Source: an uncultured Caulobacterales bacterium (GTDB lineage: Bacteria > Pseudomonadota > Alphaproteobacteria > Caulobacterales > Caulobacteraceae). Taken from it: a stretch of DNA of 64,000 nt. The stretch lies in contig CAIOYC010000009.1 of the NCBI GenBank assembly GCA_903862425.1, forward strand, positions 124,001-188,000, in the 5' to 3' direction. The notes beneath the pieces are model-generated. The model saw nothing but the letters and a program-made list of their open reading frames with translations. It ran no database searches and was not told the DNA's origin. The first letter of the stretch is position 1. Each line of letters begins with the position of its first letter. Positions 6,693-33,447 of the stretch are shown here, one piece after another. A program made the position numbers and the translations under genes.

Positions 6693-6740
6693 CCGCGCTC
6701 CGGTAGCGTGTTTCGGGCGGGGGGTGTAAGGCCCCGCGCC

Positions 6741-8106: not shown

Positions 8107-8280
8107 TCCCAGCTCGCTTCGCGGGTGGGGCAAATGGTCCGAACGCCGCATCCAGTTCGGGGAATAAGCCCTTGAAATCCGGGCTCTCGCGGTGCAGAGG
8201 TCGCACTCGCCCTGAAGACTTCGGAAATGAGCCGCGCTAGGGGACAGCGCAGGTTTCATCCTCGGTAAGCGGAGCGATAG

Positions 8281-9360
<1,080 letters not shown>

Positions 9361-9426
9361 TCCTACTCGGGTTCGTCCATCGGGATGTTTCCATCCCGAT
9401 TCCAAGTGTTCCGACGGAGATGAAGC

Positions 9427-10719: not shown

Positions 10720-10721
10720 GC

Positions 10722-11240
10722 ATGGCGTCGCGCACGCCGTCTCGTCCGCTTGAGCCCTGGCGCTGGCTGGGCGTGCCGGCCCTGCTGGCCATCGTGGCGA
10801 CCGTGGTCATCGACGCTCCGATCCGCATCATCACCCTGGCCCTGCCCGAGCCGATCTTCCCCATGGTGCTGGCTTTCGCCTGGGCCGTCATCCGCCCGTC
10901 GATCCTCGGCCCCGTACTGCTGGTGCTCGTCGGCGTATTTCTCGACCTGTTCATGGGCTCACCGCTCGGTCTGTGGCCTATCAGCCTGCTGATCGGCTAC
11001 GGCGTCGCTTTGATCGGCCGCACCCTGATGGTGGGGCAGGAGACGGAGGTCATGGCCATCTATTACGGCGCGGCCAGCCTGGCGACTTTCGTCAGCGCCT
11101 ATGCATTGGTGGCCATAGCCGGGAAGGGGCATCCGAACCTCATCGCGCTGATGTGGCAATTTGCGGCCACACTGGTGTTGTTTCCTCTCGTACTGATGCT
11201 GCGTGATCGTTTCCGCGACGCCGACATCCGTTTCCGTTGA
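10722..11240 (+). CDS. mreD: rod shape-determining protein MreD
   Basis: A 172-residue membrane protein with five to six hydrophobic helices. It has FPMVLAFAWAVIRPS and GVFLDLFMGSPLGLWPIS, the loop-helix with DLFMGSPLG that is characteristic of MreD. I choose ATG 10722, two bases after the mreC stop; the open frame extends further upstream but lies inside mreC. MreD is a small partner of MreC in the elongasome. Confidence 0.94.
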   Translation: MASRTPSRPLEPWRWLGVPALLAIVATVVIDAPIRIITLALPEPIFPMVLAFAWAVIRPSILGPVLLVLVGVFLDLFMGSPLGLWPISLLIGYGVALIGRTLMVGQETEVMAIYYGAASLATFVSAYALVAIAGKGHPNLIALMWQFAATLVLFPLVLMLRDRFRDADIRFR

Positions 11241-11279
11241 CCAACCGCCCGTTGAACGCCCCCAAGTGAGCCGCTGCCT

Positions 11280-13319: not shown

Positions 13320-14470
13320 CCGCCTCGGCCCTGACCCGTCCCGGCCAGCGGGAGCGGCTGAGCGAGAAGATCACCGAGATCGACTGGCGCCTGGCGCTGG
13401 TGCTCACCGCCATCGCCGGGCTCGGGGCGATGATCCTCTATTCGGCGGCCGGCAATCACTGGGGGCCGTGGGCGGACAAGCACCTGATCCGCTATGGCCT
13501 GTGCCTGATCGTCATGCTGGGCCTGTCGCTGATCGGCCTGCGCTACTGGTTCACCGCCGCCTATCCGGTCTATGCCCTGGCGCTGATCCTGCTTTTGGCC
13601 GTGCCGGTGATCGGTCACTCGGCGCTCGGGGCCAAGCGTTGGATCGGCACCAATTCGTTCCAGATCCAGCCTTCCGAGATCATGAAGGTCGGACTGGTCC
13701 TGGCCCTGGCTCGATTCTATCACGGCATGACCTCGCGCGAGGCGGCCATGTCATGGAAGCTCCTCATCCCGGCAGCCCTGATCGGTGCGCCGGTGCTTCT
13801 GGTGGCGCACCAGCCGGACCTCGGCACCGCCATCCTGCTGGCCGCCACCGGTTTTTCCATCATGGTGCTGGGCGGGTTGTCCTGGCGGCTGATGACGGCG
13901 GGGGCGATCCTTGGCGGCGCCACGGTCGTGCCCTTTCTGCTGTTCGTGCTGAAGGGCTATCAGCGCGACCGCCTGCTGACCTTCCTGCATCCGGAGCAGG
14001 ATCCGTCCGGCCTTGGCTATCACATCACCCAGTCGAAGATCGCGCTGGGCTCCGGCGGCCTGCTGGGCAAGGGATTCGGCCTGGGTTCCCAAAGCCAGCT
14101 GAACTTCCTGCCGGAAAAACAGACCGACTTCATCTTCGCCACCTTCGGCGAGGAGTTTGGCCTGGTGGGCTGCGTCGGTCTCTTGGCCCTTTACGCCATC
14201 GCCGTGGCCATCGCCCTGCGCATCGCCTCCATATCGCACAGTCACTTCGGCCGGCTGTCGGCGGCGGGGGTGACGGTGACCTTCGCCCTCTACGTGTTGG
14301 TCAATGCCGCCATGGTGATGGGCCTGGCCCCGGTGGTGGGCGTGCCCATGCCGCTGATGAGCTATGGCGGTACGGTCATGGTTACGGTGATGATCAGCTT
14401 CGGACTGGTCGAGGCCGTGCGCGTGCACCGCTATGAGGAAATGCCGTCGGGTCGCGGCAGTCTGCTCTGA
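13316..14470 (+). CDS. rodA: peptidoglycan glycosyltransferase RodA (SEDS family)
   Basis: A 384-residue multi-pass SEDS protein. Diagnostic segments are WIGTNSFQIQPSEIMKVGLV, the loop containing HQPDLGTAILL with the essential Asp, LTFLHPEQDPSGLGYHITQS, GSGGLLGKGFGLGSQSQLNF, LPEKQTDFIFATFGEEFG and the C-terminal VGVPMPLMSYGGT. ATG 13316 overlaps the mrdA stop by four bases, indicating coupled translation with PBP2. It polymerises lipid II for rod-shaped growth. It is the last gene of the operon. Confidence 0.97.
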   Translation: MTASALTRPGQRERLSEKITEIDWRLALVLTAIAGLGAMILYSAAGNHWGPWADKHLIRYGLCLIVMLGLSLIGLRYWFTAAYPVYALALILLLAVPVIGHSALGAKRWIGTNSFQIQPSEIMKVGLVLALARFYHGMTSREAAMSWKLLIPAALIGAPVLLVAHQPDLGTAILLAATGFSIMVLGGLSWRLMTAGAILGGATVVPFLLFVLKGYQRDRLLTFLHPEQDPSGLGYHITQSKIALGSGGLLGKGFGLGSQSQLNFLPEKQTDFIFATFGEEFGLVGCVGLLALYAIAVAIALRIASISHSHFGRLSAAGVTVTFALYVLVNAAMVMGLAPVVGVPMPLMSYGGTVMVTVMISFGLVEAVRVHRYEEMPSGRGSLL

Positions 14471-14556
14471 GGCCTGTTTGGGCGCCGCCTATCTGGGCAG
14501 CCTCGCGGACCCGTCATTCGGATACTGGGAGCGCGCCTTGCGACAAATCCCACCCC

Positions 14557-16500
14557 TTATTGAGCGGTTCCAGGTGGATTATACTTCTCGACGAAGGTCA
14601 GGGCCGAGGTCAGCATCAGGGTGCGGGTGGCCTCGCGTGAGAGCCAGTGATCCTCGCTCGGCATCACCACCATCTCTACCGGCTTGCCCGCGGCGGTGAG
14701 AGCGTGCTGCATGGCCGTGCTCTGGTCGAACGGCACCACGGTGTCGTCCTTGCCGTGGAGGATCGGCGCGTCCGCATGGGCTGCCTGCCGCAGCGGAGAT
14801 ATCTGATCGAACCCTGTCGCCGGTCCCATGAAGGTCTGCCAGTAACGGGTGGCCGAGCTCGATCGGCCGCTTTGGTCCTTCGCATATGTCAGGAAGTTGG
14901 CCGGATCCGAGACGCCGGCCACCGCAACGGCGCAGCGATAGAGGCCGTGCTGCACGGTCACGCCCGCCAGAGCGGCGTAGCCGCCATAACTGCCGCCGAC
15001 GATGCAGGCGCGCTTGGGGTCGACGACGCCCTCGCGGCCGAGTTCGGCCAAGCCGTCAGACACGTCGGTCTGCATCTTGCGGCCCCACTCGCCGAAGCCG
15101 GCGTCCCGGAAAGCCGCGCCGTACCCTGCGGAGCCCCGGAAGTTCGGCTGTAGTACCGCATAGCCGCGCGAGGCGAAGGCCTGGGCCCACCAGTCGAACA
15201 CCGGATAATCCCGCGCCTGCGGCCCACCATGCGGGAGCAAGACGACGGGAAGGTTGGTGGGTGCGCGACCGGCGGGCAGGCTGAGCACGCCGTGGATCAC
15301 CGTGCCGTCCGCCGCCTTCCACTCGATCACCCGGATAGGACCGATCTGGTCGGCGTGAACGGCGGGATACTCGTAGCCAACCGGCTGAGCCTGCCCGGTG
15401 GCGATGTCCACGATCCAGTAGGTGCCGGAGTCGTCTCCGCCGGTGGTGAAGACGAGGAGGCGATTGAAATCCTCGCTCATGGACTCAAGCCGCACCGTCT
15501 GATTGGGAAAAGCCTTGCGCGCGGCCATGGTGCGCTTTTCCATCATCGGATCGAACATCTTGATGGCGGGCTGGTCGCCGCGCACGGTGTAGCCGATCCA
15601 TAGGTCGGTCTTGCGGTCGAATATCCGCGAATGGATATCGTCATCGTCGGGCGTATCGACGGCTTTGCCGTCTGCGAGTGAGATTTCCTCGGCGACCACG
15701 CCCTTATCGGTGGCGTGGGTGACCAGCAGGGTGTCGGCGGTCCGCCCGCGCGACAGGCCTGCGCCGCCGAAGGGCGATCGTCCCGAGGCCAGCACCTTCC
15801 CCACGTGTAGGCCGGCCAGGACCTGCCAGTCGCCGCTATCCTCGTTATAGACGGCGCGGGCGATCACTTGCCCGTCGGGGCCCACCAGCCAGCCGTCTCC
15901 CACGGGCGAGCCATTTGCGACCCGCTCCGCGTCTCCCGTGTCAAGATCGACACGATACAGATCAGGATAGGTGTGGTCGAGGTACGGATTGTTCTCCGTA
16001 GTTTGGCGGTTGGTGACGCCGCCAAAGAACCCGTACCAATGGCCGCCGATCTCCGCCGCGCCATATTCGCCTGACACCACATGCGAGACGACGGTCTGCT
16101 TGGCGAAGACGGAGAATATCTTGTAGCCCGGCACGCTCACCACGAGCACGCCCGCGACTTCGGTCTGGCTGGTGGTGAACTCCATGCCGAGTTGGGTGGT
16201 GCGGGTGATGGTGACCAGAAGGTGATCCTCGCAGGCCCAGTCCACTGAACGGACCTTGGCCGCGCCCACATTGGCGGCCACATCCATGGCGCCGCCGACC
16301 GGACCCACAAGAAGCTTACGCTGGTCGCCTACCACGCCGATCATGGCCAGTCGCTTGCCGGAGGGCGAGAGACTGACCTGTTCGACGCCTGGCAGCTTGC
16401 CATAGGCGTTCAGGTCGACCGACGCCGCTAGCACTGTCGTCGGGTTTAAGCCCCAGGCTAAAGCGCCGACGAGCACGAGCACTAAACTCCACCTGAACAT
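14557..16500 (-). CDS. S9 family (prolyl oligopeptidase-like) serine peptidase, exported
   Basis: A 647-residue protein with a signal peptide (MFRWSLVLVLVGALAWGL, cleavage near AAS at residue 27). Residues about 35-385 form a beta-propeller-like region and residues 390-647 an alpha/beta hydrolase domain. The catalytic Ser is Ser504 in VGGSYGGYAAL; HGKDDTVVPF supplies Asp585 or 586 and SEDHWL gives His618. This is the dipeptidyl-peptidase/acylaminoacyl-peptidase branch of S9. It probably cleaves short peptides in the periplasm. It converges with rodA and is divergent from the cupin gene. Confidence 0.93.
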   Translation of the reverse strand: MFRWSLVLVLVGALAWGLNPTTVLAASVDLNAYGKLPGVEQVSLSPSGKRLAMIGVVGDQRKLLVGPVGGAMDVAANVGAAKVRSVDWACEDHLLVTITRTTQLGMEFTTSQTEVAGVLVVSVPGYKIFSVFAKQTVVSHVVSGEYGAAEIGGHWYGFFGGVTNRQTTENNPYLDHTYPDLYRVDLDTGDAERVANGSPVGDGWLVGPDGQVIARAVYNEDSGDWQVLAGLHVGKVLASGRSPFGGAGLSRGRTADTLLVTHATDKGVVAEEISLADGKAVDTPDDDDIHSRIFDRKTDLWIGYTVRGDQPAIKMFDPMMEKRTMAARKAFPNQTVRLESMSEDFNRLLVFTTGGDDSGTYWIVDIATGQAQPVGYEYPAVHADQIGPIRVIEWKAADGTVIHGVLSLPAGRAPTNLPVVLLPHGGPQARDYPVFDWWAQAFASRGYAVLQPNFRGSAGYGAAFRDAGFGEWGRKMQTDVSDGLAELGREGVVDPKRACIVGGSYGGYAALAGVTVQHGLYRCAVAVAGVSDPANFLTYAKDQSGRSSSATRYWQTFMGPATGFDQISPLRQAAHADAPILHGKDDTVVPFDQSTAMQHALTAAGKPVEMVVMPSEDHWLSREATRTLMLTSALTFVEKYNPPGTAQ

Positions 16501-17228: not shown

Positions 17229-19313
17229 CTAGGCCAAAGTGCGGACCTTAGGCTCCCGATCCCAATAGCGCTGCGCGGCCGCGGCGACGAACGCGTCGAG
17301 GCTGACCACACCTTCATCCGCCTGCACTCCGGCCTTGTCGAGTAGGGGCTTGGCTTCAGCGGTATGGCCGATGGCCTTCAGGTGGCCGAAGGCGTCCATG
17401 ACGAACTGGACCGCCGCGCTGTCCTTGAGGAGCATATCGCAGCCGACGTCGGATAGGACGACCGCGATGGCGTCGACCATCACCGAGGGCGTGCCCGCCA
17501 GCTGTCCGTCCGCCTTCAGGATAGCGCCGCCCTTCATCTTGGCGCCCCCGACCTTAGGCGCGATGATCTTCGCAACGCCGCCCTCGGCCTTGATCTGTTC
17601 GAGCAAGGTGTCCACGGCTGACGGTTCCGATCCGTCGGCGATCAGGATACCGACCGTACGGCCCTTCAGCGTGGCCGGCTCGCGATCGCCCTTGACGATA
17701 CGAAGCGCCGGCGACAGGTCGAAATCCTGCACCTCCACCGCTGCGGGGTTCGCCTTTGGCAGCGTCATGGCCAGGCCGTCTGCCACCCGCTGCGCCAGTT
17801 CCTGGTCGACGTTGACGAGGTTCCCCAGCATGCGCAACCTGATCGCCTCCACCGCGACCTTTGATAGCTCGAACACCAGAGCTGAAGCCAGGTGCGCCTG
17901 CTCGGCCGGGTCGATGGATCGGAAGAACATGCGCGCCTGGCTGTAGTGATCGGCGAAGCTTGCCGGGCGGATACGCAGCTTGTCGCCCTGCTCGTTATGG
18001 CCCTCAGCGGACGGGAAGGTCGTGAAGCCCGAGGCGGGGCATTCGCGCGGCCCGCCGTTCTCGCCGTTGTCCGCCAGGCTATTGGGCTCGTAATTGGCGC
18101 GGCCCTTGGGCTGCAGCATCTGCATCTGCCCGTCGCGCTGGAAGTTCATAACCGGACACTTGGGCGCGTTGATAGGAATCTGGTGGAAGTTGGCCGTGCC
18201 GAGCCGGCTCTTTTGCGTATCCAGATAGCTGAACAGCCGTCCCTGCAGCAGCGGGTCGTTGGAGAAATCCACGCCCGGCACGATATTGGCCGGGCAGAAA
18301 GCCACCTGTTCAGTCTCGGCGAAGAAGTTGTCCGGATATCGGTCCAGCACCATACGGCCGATCAGGCGCACGGGCAGAACCCCTTCCGGGATGATCTTGG
18401 TAGGATCGAGCACATCATAGGGCAGGCTGTCGGCAAACGCCTGGTCGAAGGCCTGGATGCCCAGTTCCCACTCCGGATAGTCGCCGCGCTCGATGGCTTC
18501 GAACAGGTCCCGACGCTGGAAGTCCGGATCCGCGCCGGCCACCTTCACCGCCTCGTCCCACAGACTGGAGGCAAGACCCTGCTTGGGCTTCCAGTGGAAC
18601 TTGACGAAGGTCGACTTGCCCTCGGCATTGACCAGCCGGAAGGTGTGGATACCGAAGCCCTCCATGGTGCGTAGGGTGCGCGGGAGGGTGCGGTCGGACA
18701 TGGCCCACATGATCATGTGGGTCGCCTCGGGCATCAGGCTGATGAAGTCCCAGAAGGTGTCGTGAGCCGTCGCCGCCTGCGGATAGCCGCGGTCGGCCTC
18801 CATCTTGGCGGCATGGATCAGGTCGGGAAACTTGATAGCGTCCTGGATAAAGAAGACCGGAATATTGTTGCCGACGAGATCCCAGTTACCTTCTTTGGTA
18901 TAGAACTTCACCGCGAAGCCCCGCACGTCGCGGGGCGTGTCCACTGAACCGGCGCCGCCGGCGACCGTCGAGAAACGGGTGAACAGCGGGGTCTTCTCGC
19001 CGGCGCGCTGGAACAGGTCCGCCTTGGTGATGTCGCTCAGCGACTCGTAGAGCTCGAAGAAGCCGTGGGCAGCCGTGCCACGGGCATGCACGATCCGCTC
19101 CGGGATGCGTTCGTGGTCGAAATGGAAAATCTTCTCCCGAAGGACGAAGTCCTCCAGCAAGACCGGCCCTCGATCGCCTGATTTCAACTGGTTCTGGTTA
19201 TCTGAGACGCGAATGCCCTGATTGGTGGTGAGCGCCCCGGCGCTTTCATCCGTGGTCTGATGGGTTTCGCCACCGTTCCCGATCTCATTGACTAACTTAT
19301 GTTTCTTGGTCAT
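17229..19313 (-). CDS. katE: catalase, large-subunit (KatE/HPII-like) clade
   Basis: A 694-residue clade II catalase. Heme-site residues are His76 in [12 protein letters not shown], Asn149 in [10 protein letters not shown] and the proximal ligand Tyr363 in [12 protein letters not shown]. From about residue 540 it has the C-terminal flavodoxin/class I amidotransferase-like domain ([14 protein letters not shown]) that marks the large-subunit type. I choose ATG 19313, preceded by GAAGGA, rather than a start 53 codons upstream. It removes hydrogen peroxide, typically in stationary phase or stress. A GGAAC-N17-CTTT element 27 bases upstream resembles, with one mismatch, an EcfG promoter. Confidence 0.96.
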
Positions 19314-19340
19314 CGGCGCGTCCTTCGAACTGTGCTCCTG

Positions 19341-19366
19341 AAAGCGCTGGAGCGAAGGCGGGTTCC
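19341..19366 (-). promoter_or_regulatory. possible EcfG-type promoter for catalase (one mismatch)
   Basis: On the minus strand, GGAAC (19366-19362), 17 bases and CTTT (19344-19341) resemble the general stress promoter GGAAC-N16/17-CGTT with one mismatch in the -10 part. The -10 ends 27 bases before the catalase ATG. The position and the stress role of the gene support it; the match alone is weak. Confidence 0.35.
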
Positions 19367-19516
19367 GAAATTTGGAGAACGGTTGTCCCGGTCTGGACGT
19401 CCAACGGGTCAGCATGCGCTTCACACCAAGGGCGCTCGGCTGGCTCGGGCTGGGCTCTTGGGGGACGGCCACTTCCGGAGATAGGCGGCCCTGGCCTGAC
19501 CGGCGCCTGATTATCC

Positions 19517-19589: not shown

Positions 19590-20465
19590 ATGCCGCGCCT
19601 GCGTATTCGTCATGAGAGTTTCTACAGCTATTCCGAGCCGGTCCGGTTCGGGTCATGGCGGCTGCTGATGCGCCCCCTCGACACGCATGCCACGCGGCTG
19701 ATTTCGGCGTCGCTGGAGACCCCGCCATGCGAACTCAAATGGGCTTATGATGCGTACGGCAACTGTGTCTGCCATCTGCAGCCGCGCGATCGCGCTGACT
19801 ACTTGAAGGTCGTGAACAACCTCGTTGTGGATCGCTTTCCCGCGCCGCTGGCCAATGTCACGATCGACAATCCCTGCTCCACAGCGCCCATCGTCTACGG
19901 TCTATCGGACCGGGCAATCCTGGAGCCGTTCATCACGCCGACGACCGACGACGCCGGACCGCGTTACAAGGAGTGGCTGCGCGCGCAGATCCGCGCACCC
20001 GACGAGCCCGCGCTGGAGTGTCTCAAGCGCATCAACACCACCATCCACGACGACTTCGTCTATGGCGCGCGGGACGAAGCGGGTACGCAAGGTCCGGGGG
20101 AGACCGTGGATCTAGGCTCCGGAACCTGCCGCGACTTCGCCTGGCTGATGATCGAGAGCGTTCGCCGGCTGGGTTTCGCGGCCCGATTCGCCACCGGCTA
20201 TCTGTATTCTCCTCATGCCACGGTGCGCGGCGCCGGCGCCACCCATGCCTGGTGCGAGGTCTTCCTGCCCGACCTCGGCTGGATGGAGTTCGATCCAACC
20301 AACGCCCTGGTGGAATCCGCCTCCCTTATCCGCGTGGCCACAACCCGCACCTGGCAGGAATCCGACCCCATGAACGGTTCGGTCTACGGGAATGCTGCCT
20401 GCGATCTGAAGGTCTCGGTCGATGTGGACCTGATCCGTGACGATGGATTGAACATGGCCGCTTAG
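19590..20465 (+). CDS. transglutaminase-like cysteine protease-fold protein
   Basis: A 291-residue protein of the bacterial transglutaminase-like superfamily. An N-terminal beta domain (MPRLRIRHESFYSY start, typical of these proteins) precedes the catalytic core: Cys180 in GSGTCRDFAWLM, His219 in GATHAWCEVFLP and Asp235 in EFDPTNAL. It has no signal peptide. It converges with the three-gene minus-strand operon of related proteins and is divergent from catalase. An EcfG-type promoter precedes it. The family is predicted to cleave or form amide bonds; the substrate is unknown. Confidence 0.9.
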   Translation: MPRLRIRHESFYSYSEPVRFGSWRLLMRPLDTHATRLISASLETPPCELKWAYDAYGNCVCHLQPRDRADYLKVVNNLVVDRFPAPLANVTIDNPCSTAPIVYGLSDRAILEPFITPTTDDAGPRYKEWLRAQIRAPDEPALECLKRINTTIHDDFVYGARDEAGTQGPGETVDLGSGTCRDFAWLMIESVRRLGFAARFATGYLYSPHATVRGAGATHAWCEVFLPDLGWMEFDPTNALVESASLIRVATTRTWQESDPMNGSVYGNAACDLKVSVDVDLIRDDGLNMAA

Positions 20466-20487
20466 GTCGCCCAATCACCGTCTGGCC

Positions 20488-21414
20488 TTAAATGGTCCTG
20501 GCCCACTTCCAGGCTGAGTTCTCCAGGGTCTGGGTCTCGTTGTCGGGCACGACATCGACGGCGACCTCGATGGTCTGTTCACCGGGACCGAGCACCACAC
20601 CACCCATGGGCGCAACGTCCGCATAGTCGCGGCCGACCGCCAGGACGATGTGATCTCCTGCGACGATCAGGGCATTGGTGGGGTCGAAGCCGACCCAGCC
20701 CAGTCCCTTGCCGCACCACAGGTCGACCCAGGCGTGGGTGGCGTCCGCACCCGCCAGGCGCGGCTTACCGGGCGGCGGGATGGTGCGCAGATAGCCGCTC
20801 ACATAGGCGGCCGGCAGTCCAAGGCCTCTCAGGCCGCTGATCATGATATGGGCAAAGTCCTGGCACACGCCATGCCGCGCTTCGAACGCCTCGATCGCCG
20901 GCGTGGAGACGAGGGTCGCGTCCGGGTCATAGGCGAACTCGGCCTTGATCCGGCAACTGAGGGCATGCGCAGCCTCCACCACCGAGCGTCCTGGTGCAAA
21001 GCATTCGGCGACATAGGCGGTGATGGCCGGGTCCGGCCTCGTCATGGCCGTCGGGTAGAGGAAGTGGGCGGGGGAGGCCACATCCAGGGAGGCGGAGGCC
21101 GAGGCCTCATCGCGAACCGAGTCCCATGAGGGACCGTTGAAGCCCGGCAGCAGCGGCGTGCGATGCACCGCCACCTCGGACAGGGCCTCGATCCTCAATT
21201 CCTTGTGAGGACGGTCGATGATGGCGTCGATCACGCGCTCGCCGAACGGGCCGATCCGCTCCTCCAGCCGACTCGGACGGGGCGTGATGGTCATCCGGTT
21301 GTCGATGACCGTCTGGTCCTGACCCTGCTGGGGGATCAGGCGCAGGGCGCAGCGGGCGAACGTGACCGTCTTGCTGTAGCTGTAGGTGGTTACATGGCGC
21401 AGCTTGTAGTTCAT
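20488..21414 (-). CDS. transglutaminase-like protein
   Basis: A 308-residue relative of the neighbouring gene. The start [20 protein letters not shown] is the typical N-terminal beta domain. The catalytic triad is visible as Cys184 in HGVCQDFAHIM, His227 in DATHAWVDLW and Asp244 in GFDPTNALI. The start overlaps the stop of the ATP-grasp/alpha-E gene by four bases (ATGA), so the two are co-translated. Genes with this arrangement are common across proteobacteria and are predicted to make or modify a peptide; no product is known to me. Confidence 0.92.
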   Translation of the reverse strand: MNYKLRHVTTYSYSKTVTFARCALRLIPQQGQDQTVIDNRMTITPRPSRLEERIGPFGERVIDAIIDRPHKELRIEALSEVAVHRTPLLPGFNGPSWDSVRDEASASASLDVASPAHFLYPTAMTRPDPAITAYVAECFAPGRSVVEAAHALSCRIKAEFAYDPDATLVSTPAIEAFEARHGVCQDFAHIMISGLRGLGLPAAYVSGYLRTIPPPGKPRLAGADATHAWVDLWCGKGLGWVGFDPTNALIVAGDHIVLAVGRDYADVAPMGGVVLGPGEQTIEVAVDVVPDNETQTLENSAWKWARTI

Positions 21415-23942
21415 GCCAGGCCGCCGAGCTTCTTGGTGGGCGTGGCGTTGGCGCCCTGCAGGAAATAGCGGTCGGTAATGCTGTCGGAGAGGTCGAGCAG
21501 CGTGCGCTCGAAGGTTCTCGCCCGCGCCCCATCCAGCGTGGCCGCGTCCTGAACCTCAACCTGACTGGCGAGGCGGGTGAGCAGCCGCGCGGGCTCCTCG
21601 GGCATACCGTCGTCCTGCAAGGTGGGCAGAGCGGCGATGTGAGCCTTCAGGGCGTTCACCTGGAACGCCACGGAGCGCGGATTGTAGGGATCGAGCATCA
21701 CCAGGTCGCGGACGGGGGTGAGCGAGATGGCTTCCAGATAGCGCGAGCGATAGGTGATCTGGCTGTCGATCAGGTCCAGCAGCAGGTCCAGATCGTCGAT
21801 GGTGGCGTCCTCGTCGGCGAGTTTGCGCATCAGACGGCTGGTATTCACCCCGCGCTCCACCCGTCGGCCCATGTCCAGAAAGCGCCAGCCGGCGACGCGG
21901 TTCATGTTCTCCTGAGTGAGGCCGGACAGGGTCGAGAGGTCGCGCAGGGCGGTCTCCGCCTGTTCCAGCCCGGCTGATTCCGTCATCCGAGCGCCCATCC
22001 GCCCTTTCAGCCGCGCTTCGAGCCTGAGCAGGCGCTTCCAGAAGTCCTCCGAGAGCCGCTCGCGCATGCTGGCCGCCGCCCGCCGGGCCGAGCGGACCTG
22101 GGAGACCACCGATCCGTAGGCCTCCTCGTCATAGAGGGCGTGTCGGGTCACGTCCGTCACGCGCCGGTCGAGGAACGCCTTGTCGACGGCGCCGGAGTCC
22201 ACCAGCAGGGCCTTCAGCTTGTCGAGGGTCTCGCCGGAACTGTGGGTGGCGGCGTCCGGGTCCATCAGGCTGGTGCACAGGCTGCGGACCAGACGCAGGG
22301 TGCTTTCCGCGCGCTCCAGATAACGGCCGAGCCAGAACAGGTTGTCGGCGGCGCGGCTCGGCAGGTTGCCGGTGATCCGGCGCACCCTCGCCCCCTCACG
22401 CTGGGCGAGGAGGGACACCTTCTCGACCGGTTTCTCCGCGATAACCCAAACGTCGGATGCTTCCGCGCCGGCGCCCATGGAAAGCGCGCGGGCGTCCTTC
22501 TGATCGGAGATGCGGCAGAAGCCGCCGGGCATGATGCGCCAGCCGTCTTCTGTGCGCGCCGCATAGACCCGCAGGATGAACGGACTGGGCTGAAGTTTGC
22601 CATCGCGGATCGACGGCGTGGTGGAGAGGCGAACCACCTCCTGCCCGACGAAATCCATCGGGCGCGCCCGCATCGCCGCACGAAGCGCGTCGCGCTCGTC
22701 GCCCTGCAGGTCGGCCAACAGGCGGGGGCCGCGCGCGACGGTGGGATGCGCCTTGCCGCCAAAGGCGCCGGCGATGGCGAGGGTATCGATGTTGCGCTCC
22801 ACCAGCGATCGCTCGGCCGGCTGGCCGCACCACCATGTGGCCACGTTCGGCAGCTTCAGCGCCTCGCCCAGCAGCCGCCGGCTCAGGGCCGGCAGGAAAC
22901 TCAGCAGCGCATTGGACTCAAGGACGCCGGAGCCCGGCATGTTGGAGACCACCGCCCCGCCCGCCCGGATCGCCTCCAGAAGTCCCGGCACACCGATGTG
23001 CGAGCCGCTGTTCAGCTCCATGGGATCGATAAAGTCCGCGTCCACGCGCCGCCAGATCACGTCGGCGCGCTTCAGCCCGGCAATCGTGCGCACATAGACG
23101 ACGCCGTCCCGCACCACGAGGTCGTCGCCCTGGACCAGCAGGAAGCCGAGGTAGCGGGCCAGATGGGCCTGCTCGAAATAGCTCTCGCTGAACGGACCCG
23201 GCGTCAGAAGGCAGATGCGCGGATCGGCCCGGCTCGCCGACGCCGCCAGGCTGGCGCGGAAGTCGCTGAAGAAGGGCGCCAGCCGCTCCACGTTCATGGC
23301 GTTGTAGAGATGGGGGAAGGCCCGCGACAGGACCATGCGGTTTTCGAGCGCGTAGCCCGCTCCGGAGGGCGCCTGCGTCCGATCGCCGAGGACCCACCAG
23401 CGTCCGTCCGGCCCTCGACCGAGGTCGGCGGCGTAGAGGTGGATAGGCTTTGCGCCGGGCAGTTTCACGCCGCGCATGGCGCGCACGAAGTCGTCGCTGC
23501 CGGTGACGGCCGCCGCCGGAAGATGGCCTTCGGAGACCAGCCGCCCCTCGCCGTAGAGGTCGTTCAGCACCGCTTCGAGCAGGGTCGCCCGTTGTTCGAC
23601 CCCGGCCGCGATCTCCGCCCACTCCTTTTCTGCCAGGATCAGCGGCATGGGACTGAGGGGCCATATGCGTTCGCTGTCCTCGCCATAGATGCGATGAGAA
23701 ACCCCGGCGTCGCGGATATGGCGGGTGGCGAGGGCGAAGCGTTCGGAGAAGTCCCCCTCCGGATAGGCCGCGACGGCCCGCAGGAAGCGCAGCCAGGGTT
23801 CAGGCGTCACACCATCGGGCGGTATCAGTTCGTCGGGAGCATCGACGAACGGACGATAGTCCCGCAGCCAGCCTTGCAGCCGCGCCGCCGCGGCGTCGCC
23901 TTCCGACGACGTCTGATCCAGAGCTGACAGGTCAGCGTCCAA
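21411..23942 (-). CDS. circularly permuted ATP-grasp protein fused to alpha-E domain
   Basis: An 843-residue two-part protein. Residues about 70-480 are a circularly permuted ATP-grasp ligase-type domain, with phrases such as [39 protein letters not shown] and [20 protein letters not shown], and the family motif [20 protein letters not shown]. Residues about 520-835 are an all-helical alpha-E domain ([20 protein letters not shown]). In other genomes these are often two adjacent genes, so this is a fused form. ATP-grasp proteins join a carboxylate to an amine using ATP. It overlaps both neighbours and forms one translational unit with them. Confidence 0.93.
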
Positions 23943-26900
23943 CCGGCGTTCTCAGATCGAGAGTGAGGGGAAATTCGGTGCTGCGGCTTTCCGTAGGGAT
24001 TTCGATCGTCCCGGGCGTATGGCCGTGGGCCTGGAAACGGGCCAAGCGCCGGGCCTGCGCCTCATAGGAGTTGACCGGGAAGGTATCATAGTTCCGCCCG
24101 CCCGGATGGCATGCGTAATAGACACAGCCGCCCAATGAGCGCCGGTTCCATCGATCGACGATGTCGAAGGTCAGCGGCGTGTGCGGCTCGATGTTGGGGT
24201 GAAGGCCGCTGTGCGGCTTCCACGCCTTGTAACGCACACCCGCGACCGCCTCCCCGGTGACGCCCGTCGGGGTCATGGGCAGGGGGCGAGCGTTGCAGGT
24301 GATCAGATGACGCTCGGGCACGAAGCCGGAGACAGCCACCTGCAGACGCTCCACCGAAGCGTCCACGAACCGCACCGTGCCGCCGCCGCTGTTCTCTTCG
24401 GCCATCACGTGCCACGGCTCCAGGGCGTGACGGAGCTCCAGCGCCACACCCGAATACTCCACCCGCCCGTGCTGCGGGAAACGGAACTGCCGCTGCGCCT
24501 CGAACCAGAGCGGATCGAAGGCATAGCCGGCCCGCTTCAGGTCGGCGAGCACGCTCTCGAAGTCCGCCCAGACGAAATGGGGCAGCATGAAACGGTCGTG
24601 CAGGCCGGCGCCCCAGCGCACGAGGCCGCCGTCCTGCGGTTCGCGCCAGAACCATGAGATGAGCGCGCGGATCAGGAGCTGCTGGGCGAGGCTCATGCGC
24701 GCATCCGGCGGCATCTCGAAACCCCGGAATTCCAGCAGACCCAGCCGACCCGCCGGGCCATCGGGCGAATAGAGCTTGTCGATGCAGATCTCGGTGCGGT
24801 GGGTATTGCCCGAGGCATCGGCCAGCAGGTTGCGGAACAGCCGGTCCACCAGCCAGGGCGGCGGCGCTTCGCCTTCTCCAGGGGCCGGCACGGCGGCTAG
24901 AGCGATCTCCAACTCATAGAGGCTGTCGTGGCGCGCCTCGTCCACCCGCGGCGCCTGGCTTGTCGGACCCACGAACAGGCCGGAGAACAGGTAGGACAAG
25001 GACGGATGGCGCTGCCAGTAAAGCAGCATGCTCTTCAACAGATCCGGTCGGCGCAGGAACGGCGAGTCGAGCGGGCTGGCGCCGCCCACCACCACATGAT
25101 TGCCGCCGCCCGTGCCGGTGTGGCGTCCGTCGATCATGAACTTGTCGGCGCCGAGGCGGGTCTGGGTCGCGTCCTCGTAGACCCCGCCGGTTATGCTCAC
25201 GGCCTGTTCCCAGCTCCTGGCGGGGTGGACGTTCACCTCCAGCACGCCGGGGTCCGGAGTAACCTTGATGACGTTCAGCCGCGGATCTTCGGGCGGCGAG
25301 TACCCTTCGAAGCGCACGGACTGGCCGGTCTCGGCGGCCAGGGCCTCGACCTGCGCCACCAGCTCCAGATAGTCCTCCGCCGTCTCCACAGGGGGCATGA
25401 AGACATAGAGAATTCCGTCGCGGGCCTCGAAGGTGATCGCCGTGCGCACATAGGGCGACTCGGTCTTCGGCGGGGGAACAGCCGCCACCGTGGTCAACGC
25501 GTCGTGCGGCGGCAACGCACCGCGTGGCTCGAAGGGATCGCGGCTGCGGACGTGCGGATAGTCCTCGGGTTTCAGCTCGGGCAGGCTGGCGAGCGGGAGG
25601 CGAAACCCGGCCGGAGAATCGCCCGGAACCAGGAACATGCGGCCGCGCCGCAGCACCCAAGGCTCGGTCATCCAGCCCCGGCGCTTGCCCTTGCTCCACC
25701 GCCGCAGCGGCAACACGTATGCGCGCACCCTTGAAACGCCGCTGTCGAAGGCGAGGAGCAGACGCTTGCGCTCCTGAGGGTCATCCACCTTCAGTTCGGC
25801 GGCGTCGAAGTTGTCGGGCAACTTGCCCTCGGTCCCAACCCAATGGAGCGGGTCCTCGAAGGCGGGCTGGATACTGGCCGGGTCGAGACCCAGCCGCGCG
25901 GCGAAGCGGTCGGCAAAGGCGGCCACGTCGATGGGCGCGGCCTTTTCGGCATCGGGCTGGGGTTCGTCGGTGATCCTGTCGGCGTCGCGCCAGATCGGCT
26001 CCCCATCGCCGCGCCAGTAGAGGGCGAAGGCCCAGCGGGGCAGGGGCTCGCCCGGATACCACTTGCCCTGTCCATGGTGCAGCAGCCCGCCCGAGGCGAA
26101 CCGGTCGCGCAGGCGCCGGATCAGCTGGTCGGCCAGGGCGCGCTTGGTGGGGCCGACGGCGTCGGTGTTCCACTCGGGCGACTCGAAATCGTCGATGGAG
26201 CAGAAGGTCGGTTCGCCGCCCATGGTCAGGCGCACGTCGCCCTCGGCCAGATGCTTGTCCACCAGGGCACCGAGGGCGTTCAGCGCCTGCCAGCGCTCGT
26301 CCTCGAACGGCTTGGTGATGCGGACCGGATCGATCAGCCGGACCACTGACATGTCGAACTCGAACGCCACATTGGCCGGCTCGACCAGACCGCTGATCGG
26401 CGCAGCGGAGCGGTGGTGCGGGGTTGCGGCCAGCGGCAGGTGACCCTCGCCGCAGAGAAGACCGGAGGTGGCGTCGAGGCCGATCCAGCCCGCGCCCGGC
26501 AGGAACACTTCGGCCCAGGCGTGCAGATCGCAGAAATCCTCGGTCGTGCCCGAAGGTCCGTCCAGCGCCGCCACATCGGCCTTTAGCTGGATCAGGTAGC
26601 CGGAGACGAAACGGGCGGCGAGGCCGAGCTTGCGCAGCACCTGCACCTGAAGCCAGGCGCTGTCGCGACAGGAGCCCGAGGCGAGGCTGAGCGTCTCCTC
26701 CGGCGTCTGCACGCCCGGGTCCATCCGCACGAGATAGCTCACCTCGCGCATGATCCGTGCATTGAGATCCACCAGAAAGTTGATGGTGCTGGGCGCCGTG
26801 GGCGCGAGCGTGGCCACGAAGGCGTCCAGCGCGGCAGAATCGTCCTCCACCACCAGATAGGGCGCCAACTCGCCTGCGAGATCGTCGGCATAGGCGAAGG

Positions 26901-27207
26901 GTAGGCCCTCGGCGTAGGGTTCGACGAAGAAGTCGAAGGGGTTGATCACCTTCATCTCGGCGGTCAGATCCACCTCGACGCTGAATTCATGCACAGGATC
27001 GGGGAAGACGAGCCGCGCCAGCCAGTTGCCGAACGGATCCTGCTGCCAGTTGATGAAGTGGTTGGCGGGCGTGATCTTCAGCGCGTAGCTGGGCACCAGG
27101 GTCCGACAGTGCGGCGCCGGGCGCAGGCGAACGGTCTGCGGCACGAGCCTGACGGGCCGATCGTAGCGGTAGCGCGTCAGATGATGGAGCCCGGCCGTTA
27201 CCGTCAT
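23932..27207 (-). CDS. transglutaminase-like domain fused to DUF2126
   Basis: A 1091-residue protein. Residues 1-300 are a transglutaminase-like domain with Cys180 in [11 protein letters not shown], His229 in [12 protein letters not shown] and Asp245 in GLDATSGL. Residues about 320-1085 are the DUF2126 region, with [40 protein letters not shown] and a [20 protein letters not shown] segment. DUF2126 has been proposed (comparative genomics of amidoligases, from memory) to be a glutamine-synthetase/GCS-like COOH-NH2 ligase. The gene overlaps the ATP-grasp gene by 11 bases. It probably acts with it in an unknown amide-bond pathway. Confidence 0.93.
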
Positions 27208-27374
27208 TGTCTCTCCATGGCTCCCGTCCCTGGCCGACCCGCCGGATTGGACGGAGCATGCCTACGACAGGGGCGGTCTGAAGTCTTGCTTGGCCCATCC
27301 ACAGGCGGGGGCCAAGTCTTTGCTAGCACGCGACTCGGTCAGCTTGCGATTTGATATGGTCGCGATTGACGCGT

Positions 27375-28205
27375 TCAGCGGATCGGACCGTCCAAAGTCG
27401 GCGTATCGACCTCGAAGGTCCACACCTGGAAACGGTTCAGTATATGCGGCCCGAAGGAGGTGATCATGGCCACGTCCGCGGCGTCTCGACCCCGCGCCAG
27501 CACGATACGTCCGATGCGAGGGACGTTGTTACGCGGGTCGAACGTCCACCACCGGTCGCCCAGGTACACTTCCATCCAGGCGCTGAAGTCCATCGGGTCA
27601 CGCACCGGAACACCGATGTCGCCGAGGTAGCCGTTCACATAGCGCGCCGGAATGTTCATACACCGGCACAGGGCGATGGCGAGGTGGGCGTAGTCGCGGC
27701 AGACCCCGGTCTGCTCCTCATAGGCTTCGTAAGCCGTTCGCGTCGAGCGGGCCGCCTGATAGTCGAACACGATCCGCTGGTGGGCGAAGTCGCAGATGGC
27801 CTGCACGCGCCCCCAGCCGGGCGGGATGGCGCCGAACTGGTTCCACGCGATCTGGCTCAGCCGATCGGTCTCGCAATAGCGGCTACCCATCAGATAGAGC
27901 AGGGCGTCGTCTGGAAGTTGGGACACCGGCAGCTGTTCAGCGTCCGCCGCCGTCACATCGACCTCGCCGCTGTCCTCGATGACGCAGTCGCTGCGGATCA
28001 TGAGGTCGCCCGGCGGTGCGATGAAGCGCCGGCACAGGTTGCCGAACACATCGCGATAGGTGGATGTCTCGACCGCTGGATCGATGAGGAAAACCTCGGG
28101 CACGCGCACGTCCGCGTGTCGTTTGTCCTCAAAGCTCAATTCCGTAACGACCGGCGTGGAAGACCAGCAATTGATGACGATCTCGTAGCCAAATCTGATG
28201 AGCAT
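27375..28205 (-). CDS. transglutaminase-like protein lacking the usual catalytic His
   Basis: A 276-residue protein in the same direction as the operon downstream, 167 bases away. The core Cys169 is present in QTGVCRDYAHLA, and the Asp in WWTFDPRNN. At the place where the paralogues have His (DLHAW, ATHAW) it reads MDFSAWMEVYLG, with Ser208. I believe this S is common in this subfamily, which would mean a changed or lost activity rather than a local mutation. Its N-terminal beta domain also differs from the other three. It may be a regulatory or scaffold partner of the ligase operon. Confidence 0.88.
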   Translation of the reverse strand: MLIRFGYEIVINCWSSTPVVTELSFEDKRHADVRVPEVFLIDPAVETSTYRDVFGNLCRRFIAPPGDLMIRSDCVIEDSGEVDVTAADAEQLPVSQLPDDALLYLMGSRYCETDRLSQIAWNQFGAIPPGWGRVQAICDFAHQRIVFDYQAARSTRTAYEAYEEQTGVCRDYAHLAIALCRCMNIPARYVNGYLGDIGVPVRDPMDFSAWMEVYLGDRWWTFDPRNNVPRIGRIVLARGRDAADVAMITSFGPHILNRFQVWTFEVDTPTLDGPIR

Positions 28206-31788: not shown

Positions 31789-32214
31789 TCACCGGTCGAA
31801 CTTGGTCGACAGGACGATGGAGGAGGTGGTGCGCTCCACGCCCTCCAGTTCGCCAATGGCGTCGATGACCGCATCCAGTTCCGCCATGGAGGACGCCGCC
31901 GCCAGGGCCAGCAGGTCGAATGCGCCCGACACGGACTCCAGCCGGCGCACGGCGGGGAATTTGCGCACGGCCGATGAGACGATGCCGGTCTGCTTGGGCC
32001 GCACGGTGATCATCACATAGGCCATGACCTCGCCGCGGGCGTGGGCCTCGGACACCTTGACCGTATAGCCGGCCACGACGCCGGAGGCCTCCAGCCGTGC
32101 GATGCGGCTTTGCACGGTGGTGCGCGACAAACCCAGCGCGCGGGCCAGCTCCGCCACCGGCGCGCGGGCGTTCTCACGAAGACGCGTCAACAGGGCCTGA
32201 TCGGTGGCGTCCAT
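31789..32214 (-). CDS. Lrp/AsnC family transcriptional regulator
   Basis: A 141-residue regulator. The N-terminal winged helix contains LARALGLSRTTVQSRIARLE and the C-terminal RAM ligand-binding domain contains VSGAFDLLALAAASSMAELD. Length is typical. It is divergent from the lysine dehydrogenase-like/aldehyde dehydrogenase pair, with 117 bases between them. Lrp-type regulators often sense the amino acid whose catabolic genes lie beside them, so lysine or a breakdown product is a reasonable guess for the effector. Confidence 0.92.
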   Translation of the reverse strand: MDATDQALLTRLRENARAPVAELARALGLSRTTVQSRIARLEASGVVAGYTVKVSEAHARGEVMAYVMITVRPKQTGIVSSAVRKFPAVRRLESVSGAFDLLALAAASSMAELDAVIDAIGELEGVERTTSSIVLSTKFDR

Positions 32215-32331
32215 CGGCAGATCACCCGTTCATGCGTACAGATCGCCGAAAGCCTGCCTGCGGATCGTCGGCCTGGCAATGGAAACCGACCACCGCCCGG
32301 CTCATTCTGAGTCGGAATTGGGAGACCGGCG

Positions 32332-33447
32332 ATGAAAAATGTGGTCGTACTCGGCGGCGGAAAGATCGGCGGCGCCGTAGCCGCGCTGCTGCACGGATCG
32401 GGCGATTACGGTGTCACGGTCGCCGATCGCGATGCGGATAATCTCGCTCATCTCGGCTCGGGCATCGGCCGCGAGGCCATGGACATCGGCGACAGCGCGG
32501 CGCTGGAACGGTTGCTGGCTGGCCAATACGCGGTGATCTCGGCTGCGCCCTACCACCTTACCACCCGCATCGCCTTTGCGGCCAAGACCGCCGGCGCCCA
32601 CTATCTGGACTTGACCGAGGATGTAGCCTCCACCCGCGCCGTGCGGGCGCTTGCGGATCGGGCGGAGACCGCCTTCATTCCCCAGTGCGGCCTCGCGCCC
32701 GGCTTCATCTCCATCGTCGCGCAGGACATGGCGGCGCGATTCGACAGCCTGCAGGACGTGCGCCTGCGCGTCGGCGCACTGCCGGTCTACCCGTCAAACG
32801 CCCTCAGCTACAATCTCACCTGGTCCACCGAAGGCCTGATCAACGAGTACTGCGAACCGTGCGAAGCCATCGTCCACGGCGAACGACGCGAAACGACGGC
32901 GTTGGAGGAGCTGGAGAGTTTCGCTCTCGACGGGGTGACCTATGAGGCGTTCAACACCTCCGGCGGTCTCGGCTCCCTCAGCGAGACCCTGGCCGGGCGG
33001 GTGCGCAATCTGAACTACCGCACCATCCGCTATCCTGGCCACGCCACGATCATGAAGCTGCTGCTCAACGATCTGGGCCTGCGCCACCGCCGCGACGTGC
33101 TGAAGGACATCCTGGAGACCAACATCCCCCAGACCGCCCAGGACGTGGTGGTGATCTTCGTCACCGCCTCCGGCTGGCGCGAGGGCCGGCTGACTCAGGA
33201 GACCTATGCGCACAAGGTTTATGCCGGCAAGGTGCGCGGCGTGCCCATGAGCGCGATCCAGGCCACCACCGCCAGCTCGGTCTGCGCCGTGCTGGATCTG
33301 CTCGCCACCGGCGCCCTGCGCGCCCGGGGCATGGTGCGGCAGGAGGAGATCGCGCTCGGGGCCTTCCTCGACAACCGCTTCGGCCGAGTCTACGCCCGCC
33401 TCGAAGACCGTCCCGCCGCCATCGTCCACCTGGAAGCCGCCGAATGA
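32332..33447 (+). CDS. saccharopine dehydrogenase-fold protein, probable L-lysine 6-dehydrogenase
   Basis: A 371-residue protein. An N-terminal Rossmann domain (MKNVVVLGGGKIGGAVAALL, pattern GxGxxG-like) binds NAD(P); FIPQCGLAPGFISIVAQDMA and IRYPGHATIMKLLLNDLGL are typical of the saccharopine/lysine 6-dehydrogenase family. Its length (about 370) fits bacterial lysine dehydrogenases. It overlaps the ALDH7-like gene by four bases. Together they would convert lysine to aminoadipate semialdehyde and then to aminoadipate. The alternative is a saccharopine reductase; the partner gene favours the dehydrogenase. Confidence 0.75.
   Translation: MKNVVVLGGGKIGGAVAALLHGSGDYGVTVADRDADNLAHLGSGIGREAMDIGDSAALERLLAGQYAVISAAPYHLTTRIAFAAKTAGAHYLDLTEDVASTRAVRALADRAETAFIPQCGLAPGFISIVAQDMAARFDSLQDVRLRVGALPVYPSNALSYNLTWSTEGLINEYCEPCEAIVHGERRETTALEELESFALDGVTYEAFNTSGGLGSLSETLAGRVRNLNYRTIRYPGHATIMKLLLNDLGLRHRRDVLKDILETNIPQTAQDVVVIFVTASGWREGRLTQETYAHKVYAGKVRGVPMSAIQATTASSVCAVLDLLATGALRARGMVRQEEIALGAFLDNRFGRVYARLEDRPAAIVHLEAAE

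Follow-up and report, generated by a model that had tools for sequence, protein, structure and literature searches.

We report that a fused ATP-grasp/alpha-E protein encoded in a 64,000-nucleotide stretch of DNA from an uncultured Caulobacterales bacterium (assembly GCA_903862425.1, contig CAIOYC010000009.1, positions 124,001 to 188,000; hereafter the window) has lost most of the residues that are candidates for nucleotide and metal binding in its fold, and that the same genome encodes, on contig C19 (about 69.0–72.3 kb), a second set of genes with an intact ATP-grasp protein. The fused protein, GE (P0003), is encoded between a transglutaminase-DUF2126 fusion, TD (P0004), and a stand-alone transglutaminase, B; the second set comprises a standalone ATP-grasp protein, g2 (P0006), an alpha-E protein, e2 (P0007), and a transglutaminase, t2 (P0008). 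From its pattern of lost and kept residues we take GE for an ancient pseudo-ligase that has stayed under constraint and not for a decaying gene, the working copy of the ATP-grasp probably being the one that sits elsewhere in the same genome. On balance we lean slightly towards the view that TD-GE-B makes up the accessory half of an amide-bond system in two parts, of which g2-e2-t2 would be the other. The protein families, their clustering and the prediction that they modify peptides have been known since 2008–2009; three results presented here go beyond that published prediction, namely a model of DUF2126 with a glutamine synthetase (GS) fold, the degeneracy of the fused ATP-grasp and the intact set elsewhere in the genome.

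Architecture of the TD-GE-B core

All three genes of the core lie on the minus strand. TD (23932–27207; 1091 amino acids) joins a transglutaminase-like domain (residues 1 to about 295) to DUF2126 (residues 277–1086), the latter matching PF09899 at 1267.5 bits against a cut-off of 27 and covering positions 2–826 of the 826 in the profile. GE (21411–23942; 843 amino acids from a TTG start) consists of a permuted ATP-grasp region (residues 100–478) followed by an alpha-E region (residues 527–827), with Pfam scores of 464.8 bits for CP_ATPgrasp_2 and 234.2 bits for Alpha-E (PF04168); the permuted ATP-grasp profiles PF14403 and PF04174 scored 464.8 and 306.3 bits. B (20488–21414) is recognized by Pfam as a stand-alone transglutaminase-like protein and has the triad C184/H227/D244. 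A preliminary description had assigned these proteins, together with the products of two flanking genes that we call A and C, to the transglutaminase, DUF2126, ATP-grasp and alpha-E families. Profile searches, including those with PF04168, PF14403, DUF2126 and the transglutaminase families, agree with this placement at scores above the curated Pfam cut-offs, and PF01841 is matched in four of the five proteins. A scan of the same five proteins against NCBIfam returned no match.

The list of open reading frames (ORFs) likewise reproduces the five genes and their coordinates as earlier described, along with overlaps of 11 bases between TD and GE (23932–23942) and of 4 bases between GE and B (21411–21414). 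In the direction of minus-strand transcription the order is C, a gap of 167 bases, TD, GE and B. The further claim of a five-gene overlapping system does not stand, as only three of the genes overlap, A being convergent and C lying 167 bases upstream of TD. TD, GE and B, three genes and not five, are probably translationally coupled. A five-gene operon was rejected in view of the strand of A and the rarity of A and C at other loci.

Residue losses in the fused ATP-grasp region

An AlphaFold2 model of GE had a predicted local distance difference test (pLDDT) score of 87.7 and a predicted template modelling (pTM) score of 0.85. When compared by VIA, its ATP-grasp part matched 3n6x with a Z-score of 43.0, eukaryotic glutathione synthetases with up to 24.5, YgiC/YjfC with 22–23, and glutathionylspermidine synthetase and Cp1B with 21. 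A kinship of the alpha-E part with alternative complex III and cytochrome bd subunits (Z near 10) was considered and set aside as a common helical arrangement. For glutathione synthetase, the features that correspond to the candidate residues are described as metal ligands of acidic character, a pair of lysines for phosphate and a loop with three glycines (PMC2845819). A search of the g2 profile against PDB sequences with hmmsearch matched only 3n6x and so gave no sequence-based mapping of the residues onto glutathione synthetase; an alignment of GE with 3n6x displays the missing residues.

In 22 aligned g2 proteins the candidate residues are always present: a VLEDN motif (Glu163 and Asn165), Lys324, Lys371 with the glycine loop (Gly377), Asp431, Asn463 and Lys471. 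Both P0006 and 3n6x keep every candidate metal and phosphate residue. Among 113 GE sequences, three rows of 740 residues or fewer having been left out of the residue counts, Glu163, Asn165, Gly377 and Asp431 are kept in none, position 163 being Asp in 9 and position 165 being Arg in 110 and His in 3. Retention at the other positions is low: Asn463 in 4, Lys371 in 5, Lys324 in 5 and Lys471 in 16. Taking E163, N165, K371, N463 and K471 together, 93 of the 113 sequences keep none of the five, 15 keep one and 5 keep two. The window protein itself shows G, R, N and A at the positions of E163, N165, K324 and K371 and lacks the glycine loop. Six GE proteins read from plasmid records (Azospirillum, Granulicella, Enterobacter, Burkholderia, Halomonas and Caballeronia) are also without Glu163, Asn165 and Lys324, the Caballeronia sequence being gapped at 324; two of these six, and two of the four plasmid g2 proteins, are already in the main sets, and ORFs shorter than 351 residues, including two Halomonas g2 pieces, were left out of this reading.

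The losses are accompanied by conservation at other sites. Of 118 positions invariant in g2, 36 are kept in fewer than 10% of GE proteins and 34 in at least 95%, Arg153, Arg179, Arg278, Arg433, Arg452 and Asp472 being among the latter. The alpha-E part retains Trp537, Arg540, Arg544, Gly674, Gly692 and Arg756 in all 113 sequences and E543 in 108, so that the ER motif of the family (R540, E543, R544) is conserved. The change of Asn165 to Arg in 110 of 113 sequences is suggestive of consistent replacement rather than drift. In a tree of 65 rows (39 GE and 26 g2, with 30 of the 113 GE taken at random plus named ones), which has some long branches, GE and g2 occupy the two sides of a single branch with support of 100/100. 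In our judgement it is quite likely that GE is unable to carry out ordinary ATP-grasp chemistry, and the earlier assumption that the ATP-grasp of this cluster joins a carboxylate to an amine runs counter to the absence of the candidate nucleotide and metal residues. The longest branch of the tree belongs to the GE of a Caballeronia plasmid (L223, 12852–14267), an unannotated, shortened and very divergent ORF that is perhaps a decaying copy.

An intact set and its co-occurrence with the core

In a class sample of 190 alphaproteobacterial genomes, an alpha-E protein was detected in 70, TD with its DUF2126 in 29 and GE in 26, which makes the system widespread; it was also met in Synechococcus, Burkholderia, Enterobacter, Acidithiobacillus and Granulicella. 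Within the class sample TD is accompanied by alpha-E in 29 of 29 genomes and by g2 in 28 of 29, and GE is accompanied by g2 in 25 of 26. The lone exception without g2 is G099, a genome that is 84% complete. For these counts GE and g2 were told apart by identity to P0006 (30–41% versus at least 51%), the g2 residues not being checked genome by genome; a contig-end g2 fragment (57%) in G127 was counted as present, and the total for GE leaves out a 26% fragment in G069. Each pairing gave a Fisher p below 1e-11 with shared ancestry ignored.

The two sets are also found physically joined. Burkholderia cenocepacia has a single array, g2-e2-t2-TD-GE-B, which equals the sum of both loci of the present genome, and an Enterobacter plasmid carries g2-e2-TD-GE-B. 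The ATP-grasp protein of the Anbu operon of Y. bercovieri is reported to release orthophosphate (PMC6376114), which fits g2 as the active partner. We consider it likely, with some reserve, that the two loci act together.

Transglutaminase active sites and the fold of DUF2126

Transglutaminase domains of this kind are called papain-like. The triad of TD (C180/H229/D245) is intact in all 138 aligned rows, among which the window protein appears twice, and in 142 of 142 after plasmid records were added. In B, the Cys and His are present in 113 of 113 rows and the Asp in 112, the window protein again being counted twice. Of the four transglutaminase-like proteins of the preliminary description, TD and B have intact triads and C is without the catalytic His.

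A model of TD, predicted with AlphaFold2 from the window protein and 45 homologues, had a pLDDT of 76.9 and a pTM of 0.78. By VIA, residues 1–295 matched 3isr with a Z-score of 18.1, and residues from about 295 to 927 matched glutamine synthetases with Z-scores of about 12–14.3 over roughly 200–275 aligned residues, at a root-mean-square deviation of 3.2–4.6. All 49 rows listed below 3isr were entries of the GS superfamily, as judged by their titles. With Foldseek the transglutaminase part again matched 3isr (E 9.5e-13), and the best GS match was 4hpp (E 0.013). By sequence, a search of the TD profile against PDB sequences with hmmsearch recovered transglutaminases and weak unrelated matches, and no GS. 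Seven residues, E332, K382, E657, N659, H704, E826 and R828, are invariant in all 142 aligned TD rows as candidate catalytic residues; judged by the order of the motifs, and not by a residue-wise structural map, they may be equivalents of GS residues. A sequence-based prediction of 2008 had placed Rv2566-type proteins in the GS superfamily (PMC2588565). The model supports this placement and presents DUF2126 as a putative amidoligase of GS fold, in line with the ligase fold mentioned for DUF2126 in the preliminary description.

Conservation of gene order and the alternation with Anbu

Gene order was surveyed in 137 DUF2126 loci, consisting of the window, 80 loci that were the best matches to P0004 in one scan of species genomes and lean to close relatives, and 56 less biased loci from the order and class samples (from 36 of the 40 and 20 of the 29 DUF2126 genomes, respectively). 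DUF2126 is present in 40 of the 299 genomes of the order. Two loci, L081 and L191, are identical, leaving 136 distinct TD sequences, and flanks of about 10 kb or less were read, some contigs being shorter. In 114 of the 137 loci GE is a same-strand neighbour of TD. The gap between them is negative in 31 of these 114 (including L019, where this reflects a rearranged order and not an overlap), 0–30 bases in 56, 31–200 bases in 18 and longer in 9 (419 to 4437 bases), so that GE follows TD by overlap or within 200 bases in 104 of 114. B is on the same strand in 110 of the 114 GE loci, and 41 of these 110 show the exact 4-base GE/B overlap. Conservation of gene order, as earlier proposed, is thus observed for TD-GE-B. 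The identical order is seen on a plasmid of Granulicella, a member of the Acidobacteriota, and TD, GE and B occur all together with g2-e2 in 4 of the 137 loci. Among 25 clusters of neighbouring genes listed, which come from simple ORF calling and several of which resemble shadow ORFs, the sole recognizable conserved partner beyond the core was Anbu, in one subset of the loci.

Anbu is encoded near TD in 15 loci, and in 13 of these TD and g2-e2 point away from each other. Within the stretch read, Anbu is absent from all 114 GE loci and present in 15 of the 23 loci without GE; in the 56 loci from the order and class samples there are 37 with GE, 15 with Anbu and none with both. A search with PF00227, which gave matches in 10 of 14 control genomes, found none, either of HslV or of Anbu, in the genome of the window (G000, listed as 99.89% complete). 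Membership of the window cluster in an Anbu operon was rejected on this ground.

Two further observations concern individual loci. The Enterobacter cluster mentioned above (L221) occupies 6603–15794 of a 90-kb IncFII plasmid from an Enterobacter roggenkampii blood isolate, near arsC and insertion sequence elements, and can thus probably move between bacteria. TD is split into two ORFs in Acidithiobacillus caldus (L225) and into three in Halomonas (L226), where g2 is split in two as well; these could be broken genes, insertions or sequencing errors.

Regulation

Published data connect relatives of this system to nitrogen. In B. cenocepacia the genes I35_5080-83, encoding an ATP-grasp protein, an alpha-E protein, a transglutaminase and a large transglutaminase protein, depend on NtrC and sigma54 (PMC5491218), and the genes for Anbu and the ATP-grasp protein of P. 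putida are more strongly expressed on nitrate than on ammonium (PMC8050072). Further reports describe unchanged expression of the Anbu operon under various other conditions, according to one paper, and a correlation of the system with urea genes in metagenomes. The context that emerges from the published regulatory data is a limited nitrogen supply, in beta- and gammaproteobacteria, and not the general stress that had been suggested for the cluster. Nitrogen control is documented for these relatives, not for the genes of this strain. A link to general stress through the neighbouring catalase gene (17229–19472) is unsupported; catalase was not specifically surveyed.

In A. caldus, ntrC and glnL are situated 4.6 kb upstream of the cluster, and at about 4.7 kb downstream there is a gene for an aliphatic amidase, with transposase genes between. 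We also scored upstream regions against the sigma54 -24/-12 consensus on a scale with a maximum of 11. Boxes scoring 10 precede g2 in Caballeronia (inside a small ORF before g2), A. caldus, Enterobacter (366 bases upstream) and Halomonas, and in B. cenocepacia after correction of the start; the background for such a score is 1.3% of 400-mers. Upstream of TD, in 136 mostly alphaproteobacterial loci, 10 reached a score of at least 9 compared with 6 of the 136 reverse complements and 3.3% of random 300-mers, and in the upstream regions of g2 at 19 loci from the order, class and species-genome sets no score exceeded 8. The best scores in the present genome are 5 for g2 and 4 for the window TD (300 bases upstream), and TD scored 7 in B. 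cenocepacia, 4 in A. caldus and 8 in Granulicella.

Proposed function and alternatives

Anatomy, conserved order, model folds, residue losses and co-occurrence were computed; from them we infer activities, the formation of a complex and a role for GE as follows. The g2 and e2 proteins would use ATP hydrolysis to drive the formation of an amide from an amine and a peptide-like carboxylate, in the manner of glutathione synthetase, glutathionylspermidine synthetase and the YgiC/YjfC ligases. The DUF2126 domain of TD, with its predicted GS fold, would perform a second ATP-dependent ligation of a carboxylate to an amine, and the transglutaminase domains of TD and B would act on such amides by hydrolysis or transfer. 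In GE, some of the ATP-grasp framework appears to persist together with the core of alpha-E; with the binding of ATP and Mg presumably lost, the protein would act as a pseudoenzyme, either holding the substrate or regulating, within a co-translated TD-GE-B complex. As for the substrate, we put forward, as a suggestion falling a little short of an even chance, a small amine or glutamyl conjugate and not a protein tag.

Several observations weigh against this proposal. The roles given to the lost residues come from motif analogy with glutathione synthetase and not from a structure-based residue map, and the GE alignment is uncertain near Lys371 and the glycine loop. Three of the six plasmid-record GE proteins have both Lys371 and Lys471 and five have at least one of them, so that nucleotide binding could persist in some GE proteins. 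The alpha-E part of GE has lost several residues that are invariant in e2 (e.g. Trp46, Asn95, Asp172, Asp179 and Trp201 of P0007) and may differ from e2 in function. The confidence of the TD model is moderate and the Foldseek matches to GS are weak by themselves. TD and GE are separable, 7 of 29 TD genomes being without GE and 4 of 26 GE genomes being without TD, and the co-occurrence tests leave shared ancestry out of account. Finally, in pull-downs reported for Y. bercovieri Anbu did not interact specifically with the products of the adjoining operon genes (PMC6376114), which lends no support to a stable complex there.

The same evidence can be read in other ways. GE could be an active, if divergent, ligase that relies on a different metal or phosphate site or on another activated donor, and the Arg found at 165 in nearly all sequences, the persistence of Arg179, Arg278, Arg433, Arg452 and Asp472, the Lys371 or Lys471 of some members and the intact fold of the model would suit such an enzyme; however, most GE proteins have lost the two lysines that are candidates for phosphate binding, along with the glycine loop and the E-x-N pair, and we regard this reading as unlikely. 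The view of the preliminary description, that all five genes form one system in which ATP-grasp and DUF2126 build an amide-linked peptide or protein tag that is trimmed by four transglutaminases, draws on the confirmed Pfam families and overlaps and on predictions of peptide synthesis or modification in the literature. It is at odds with the rarity of A and C elsewhere, the missing His of C and the missing ligase residues of GE, and the 2008 survey reports small Pup-like ORFs to be absent near Rv2566-type genes (PMC2588565), no small-ORF search having been run here; this view seems to us very unlikely.

Two other readings bear on what the core does and are easier to entertain. In one, which is compatible with the accessory-half proposal, the system scavenges nitrogen, an amine being conjugated or an amide broken to recover nitrogen when ammonium is short. 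This would recall the gamma-glutamyl-polyamine and gamma-glutamyl-methylamide pathways, which also use GS-fold ligases, and GmaS and the GS homologue 4hpp are among the structural matches of DUF2126. It would likewise accommodate the NtrC/sigma54 regulon, the nitrate induction and the urea-gene correlation reported in the papers mentioned above, the nearby ntrC and glnL of A. caldus and the sigma54-like boxes before g2 in four of five non-alphaproteobacterial loci, with the fifth after start correction. Yet there is no clear sigma54 excess before alphaproteobacterial TD or g2, the scores in the present genome are low, and this strain's genes are without any link to nitrogen; we hold the idea as a tentative possibility. 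In the other reading, GE with B at the local site and Anbu would be alternative partner modules of DUF2126 with the same downstream job, the release or recycling of the conjugate. The two never share a locus in our survey and the present genome has no PF00227 protein, but the pattern is confounded by lineage, all 15 Anbu loci coming from the order and class samples, and the exclusion was seen within the limited flanks described above. We think this rather improbable. Somewhat less doubtful, if still on the unlikely side, is the general notion of two kinds of DUF2126 system that exclude each other, one based on Anbu and the other on a pseudo-ATP-grasp/alpha-E protein without use of ATP, as a reader or holder of the conjugate that g2/e2 make elsewhere in the genome, together with a transglutaminase hydrolase. 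If true, it would mean that a pseudo-ligase serves as a partner in a system first predicted in 2008–2009.

The accessory-half proposal changes which protein to assay, as P0006 and DUF2126 would be the candidate ligases and GE a candidate pseudoenzyme. The six genes should be studied jointly, and growth of P. putida on limited nitrogen offers conditions that are ready to hand. Should GE prove to be a pseudo-ligase that is conserved between classes and also in a second phylum, it would offer a handle on the conjugate: it could be used as bait, because a protein that binds without turnover can serve in this way.

Relationship to known systems

Clusters of alpha-E, circularly permuted ATP-grasp, transglutaminase and DUF2126 genes were reportedly described by comparative genomics by Iyer in 2009, an account known to us through citing papers. 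The window cluster has the same families, and the GS prediction for DUF2126 (PMC2588565) is here backed by a model; it departs from the published picture in that GE is read as a pseudo-ligase, the intact second set as the other half of the system, and A and C are excluded. The Anbu operon, with ATP-grasp, alpha-E, transglutaminase and Anbu genes (PMC5666114, PMC6376114), shares its first three types with the second locus of this genome; in contrast, the genome is without an Anbu/HslV homologue, and in the window cluster GE and B are found in place of Anbu.

Glutathione synthetase, glutathionylspermidine synthetase/amidase and YgiC/YjfC, the last cited as peptide-spermidine ligases (PMC12568646), share the ATP-grasp fold of GE at Z-scores of about 20–25, and the bifunctional glutathionylspermidine enzyme likewise pairs a ligase with a cysteine amidase. 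Unlike these permuted ligases, GE is without the candidate metal and phosphate residues, which P0006 keeps. Compared with ligases of GS fold, the DUF2126 model (residues from about 295 to 1050) gave Z-scores of about 12–14 for GS, 11.4 for YbdK (GCS2 type), 10.2 for plant glutamate-cysteine ligase and 9.9 for Dop, and it differs from them in its low identity (about 7–16%), a much longer chain and the fused N-terminal transglutaminase. The Rlo operon of Pseudomonas (retropepsin, inactive transglutaminase and ATP-grasp; PMC12239564) shares with the present system the combination of an ATP-grasp, a pseudoenzyme of transglutaminase fold and a hydrolase. It differs in that its ATP-grasp is 24% identical to RimK and its transglutaminase is membrane-bound, and neither DUF2126 nor alpha-E is named in the accessible part of the paper.

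Our literature searches found no product for these clusters, in agreement with the preliminary description, and no enzyme assay beyond the report of orthophosphate release, within its accessible part (PMC6376114). Descriptions of an inactive, pseudo or degenerate ATP-grasp were not found in these searches, and DUF2126 was not named in the part of the literature surveyed. Nor did the literature searched show a pseudo-ligase role for GE, a dependence on an intact set elsewhere or an alternation between GE and Anbu, which is weak evidence of novelty.

Neighbouring genes and other observations

Gene A (19590–20465, plus strand), convergent on B, encodes a transglutaminase-like protein by Pfam and by its motifs GTCRDF, THAW and FDPTN, from which its triad appears intact. 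Gene C (27375–28205, minus strand; P0005) also encodes a transglutaminase-like protein by Pfam, in which, as the alignment indicates, the catalytic His is replaced by Ser. Among the 136 other DUF2126 loci, A was seen near TD in one (L201), and C in one (L003), as a fragment on the opposite strand. Relatives of C are common in the family, with matches to P0005 (E of 0.001 or less) in 261 of 299 family genomes and more than 100 listed places with at least 50% identity. Given this rarity at other DUF2126 loci and the abundance of C-like genes in the family, A and C would be lineage-specific neighbours and are probably outside the core.

The His of C is replaced by Ser, Ala or Cys in all 15 loci compared (L206–L220, L206 being the window gene); L003, which aligns over residues 1–150 of P0005 only and so is without the catalytic region, was not counted. 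The Cys and Asp are conserved despite the replacement of the His in this Caulobacteraceae family, and C is predicted to be a pseudo-transglutaminase or to use another base or catalytic arrangement. We noted A-like and C-like genes within 100 bases of each other in three genomes without DUF2126 (G204 contig C14, G248 contig C1 and G278 contig C24). In the window A and C flank TD-GE-B, an arrangement suggestive of the insertion of the core between two such genes.

A scan for sigma70 promoters and terminators gave no excess over shuffled sequences, and the sole sigma70 hit lies outside the intergenic region upstream of TD (27208–27374, minus strand), which showed no box resembling a promoter. This region contains a perfect 8-bp inverted repeat, CTTGGCCC...GGGCCAAG, which is a possible operator or hairpin. 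Near the cluster yet separate from it, at 31789–33447, a gene for an Lrp/AsnC-type regulator adjoins a divergent saccharopine-dehydrogenase-like gene, the two being perhaps a pair concerned with amino-acid metabolism.

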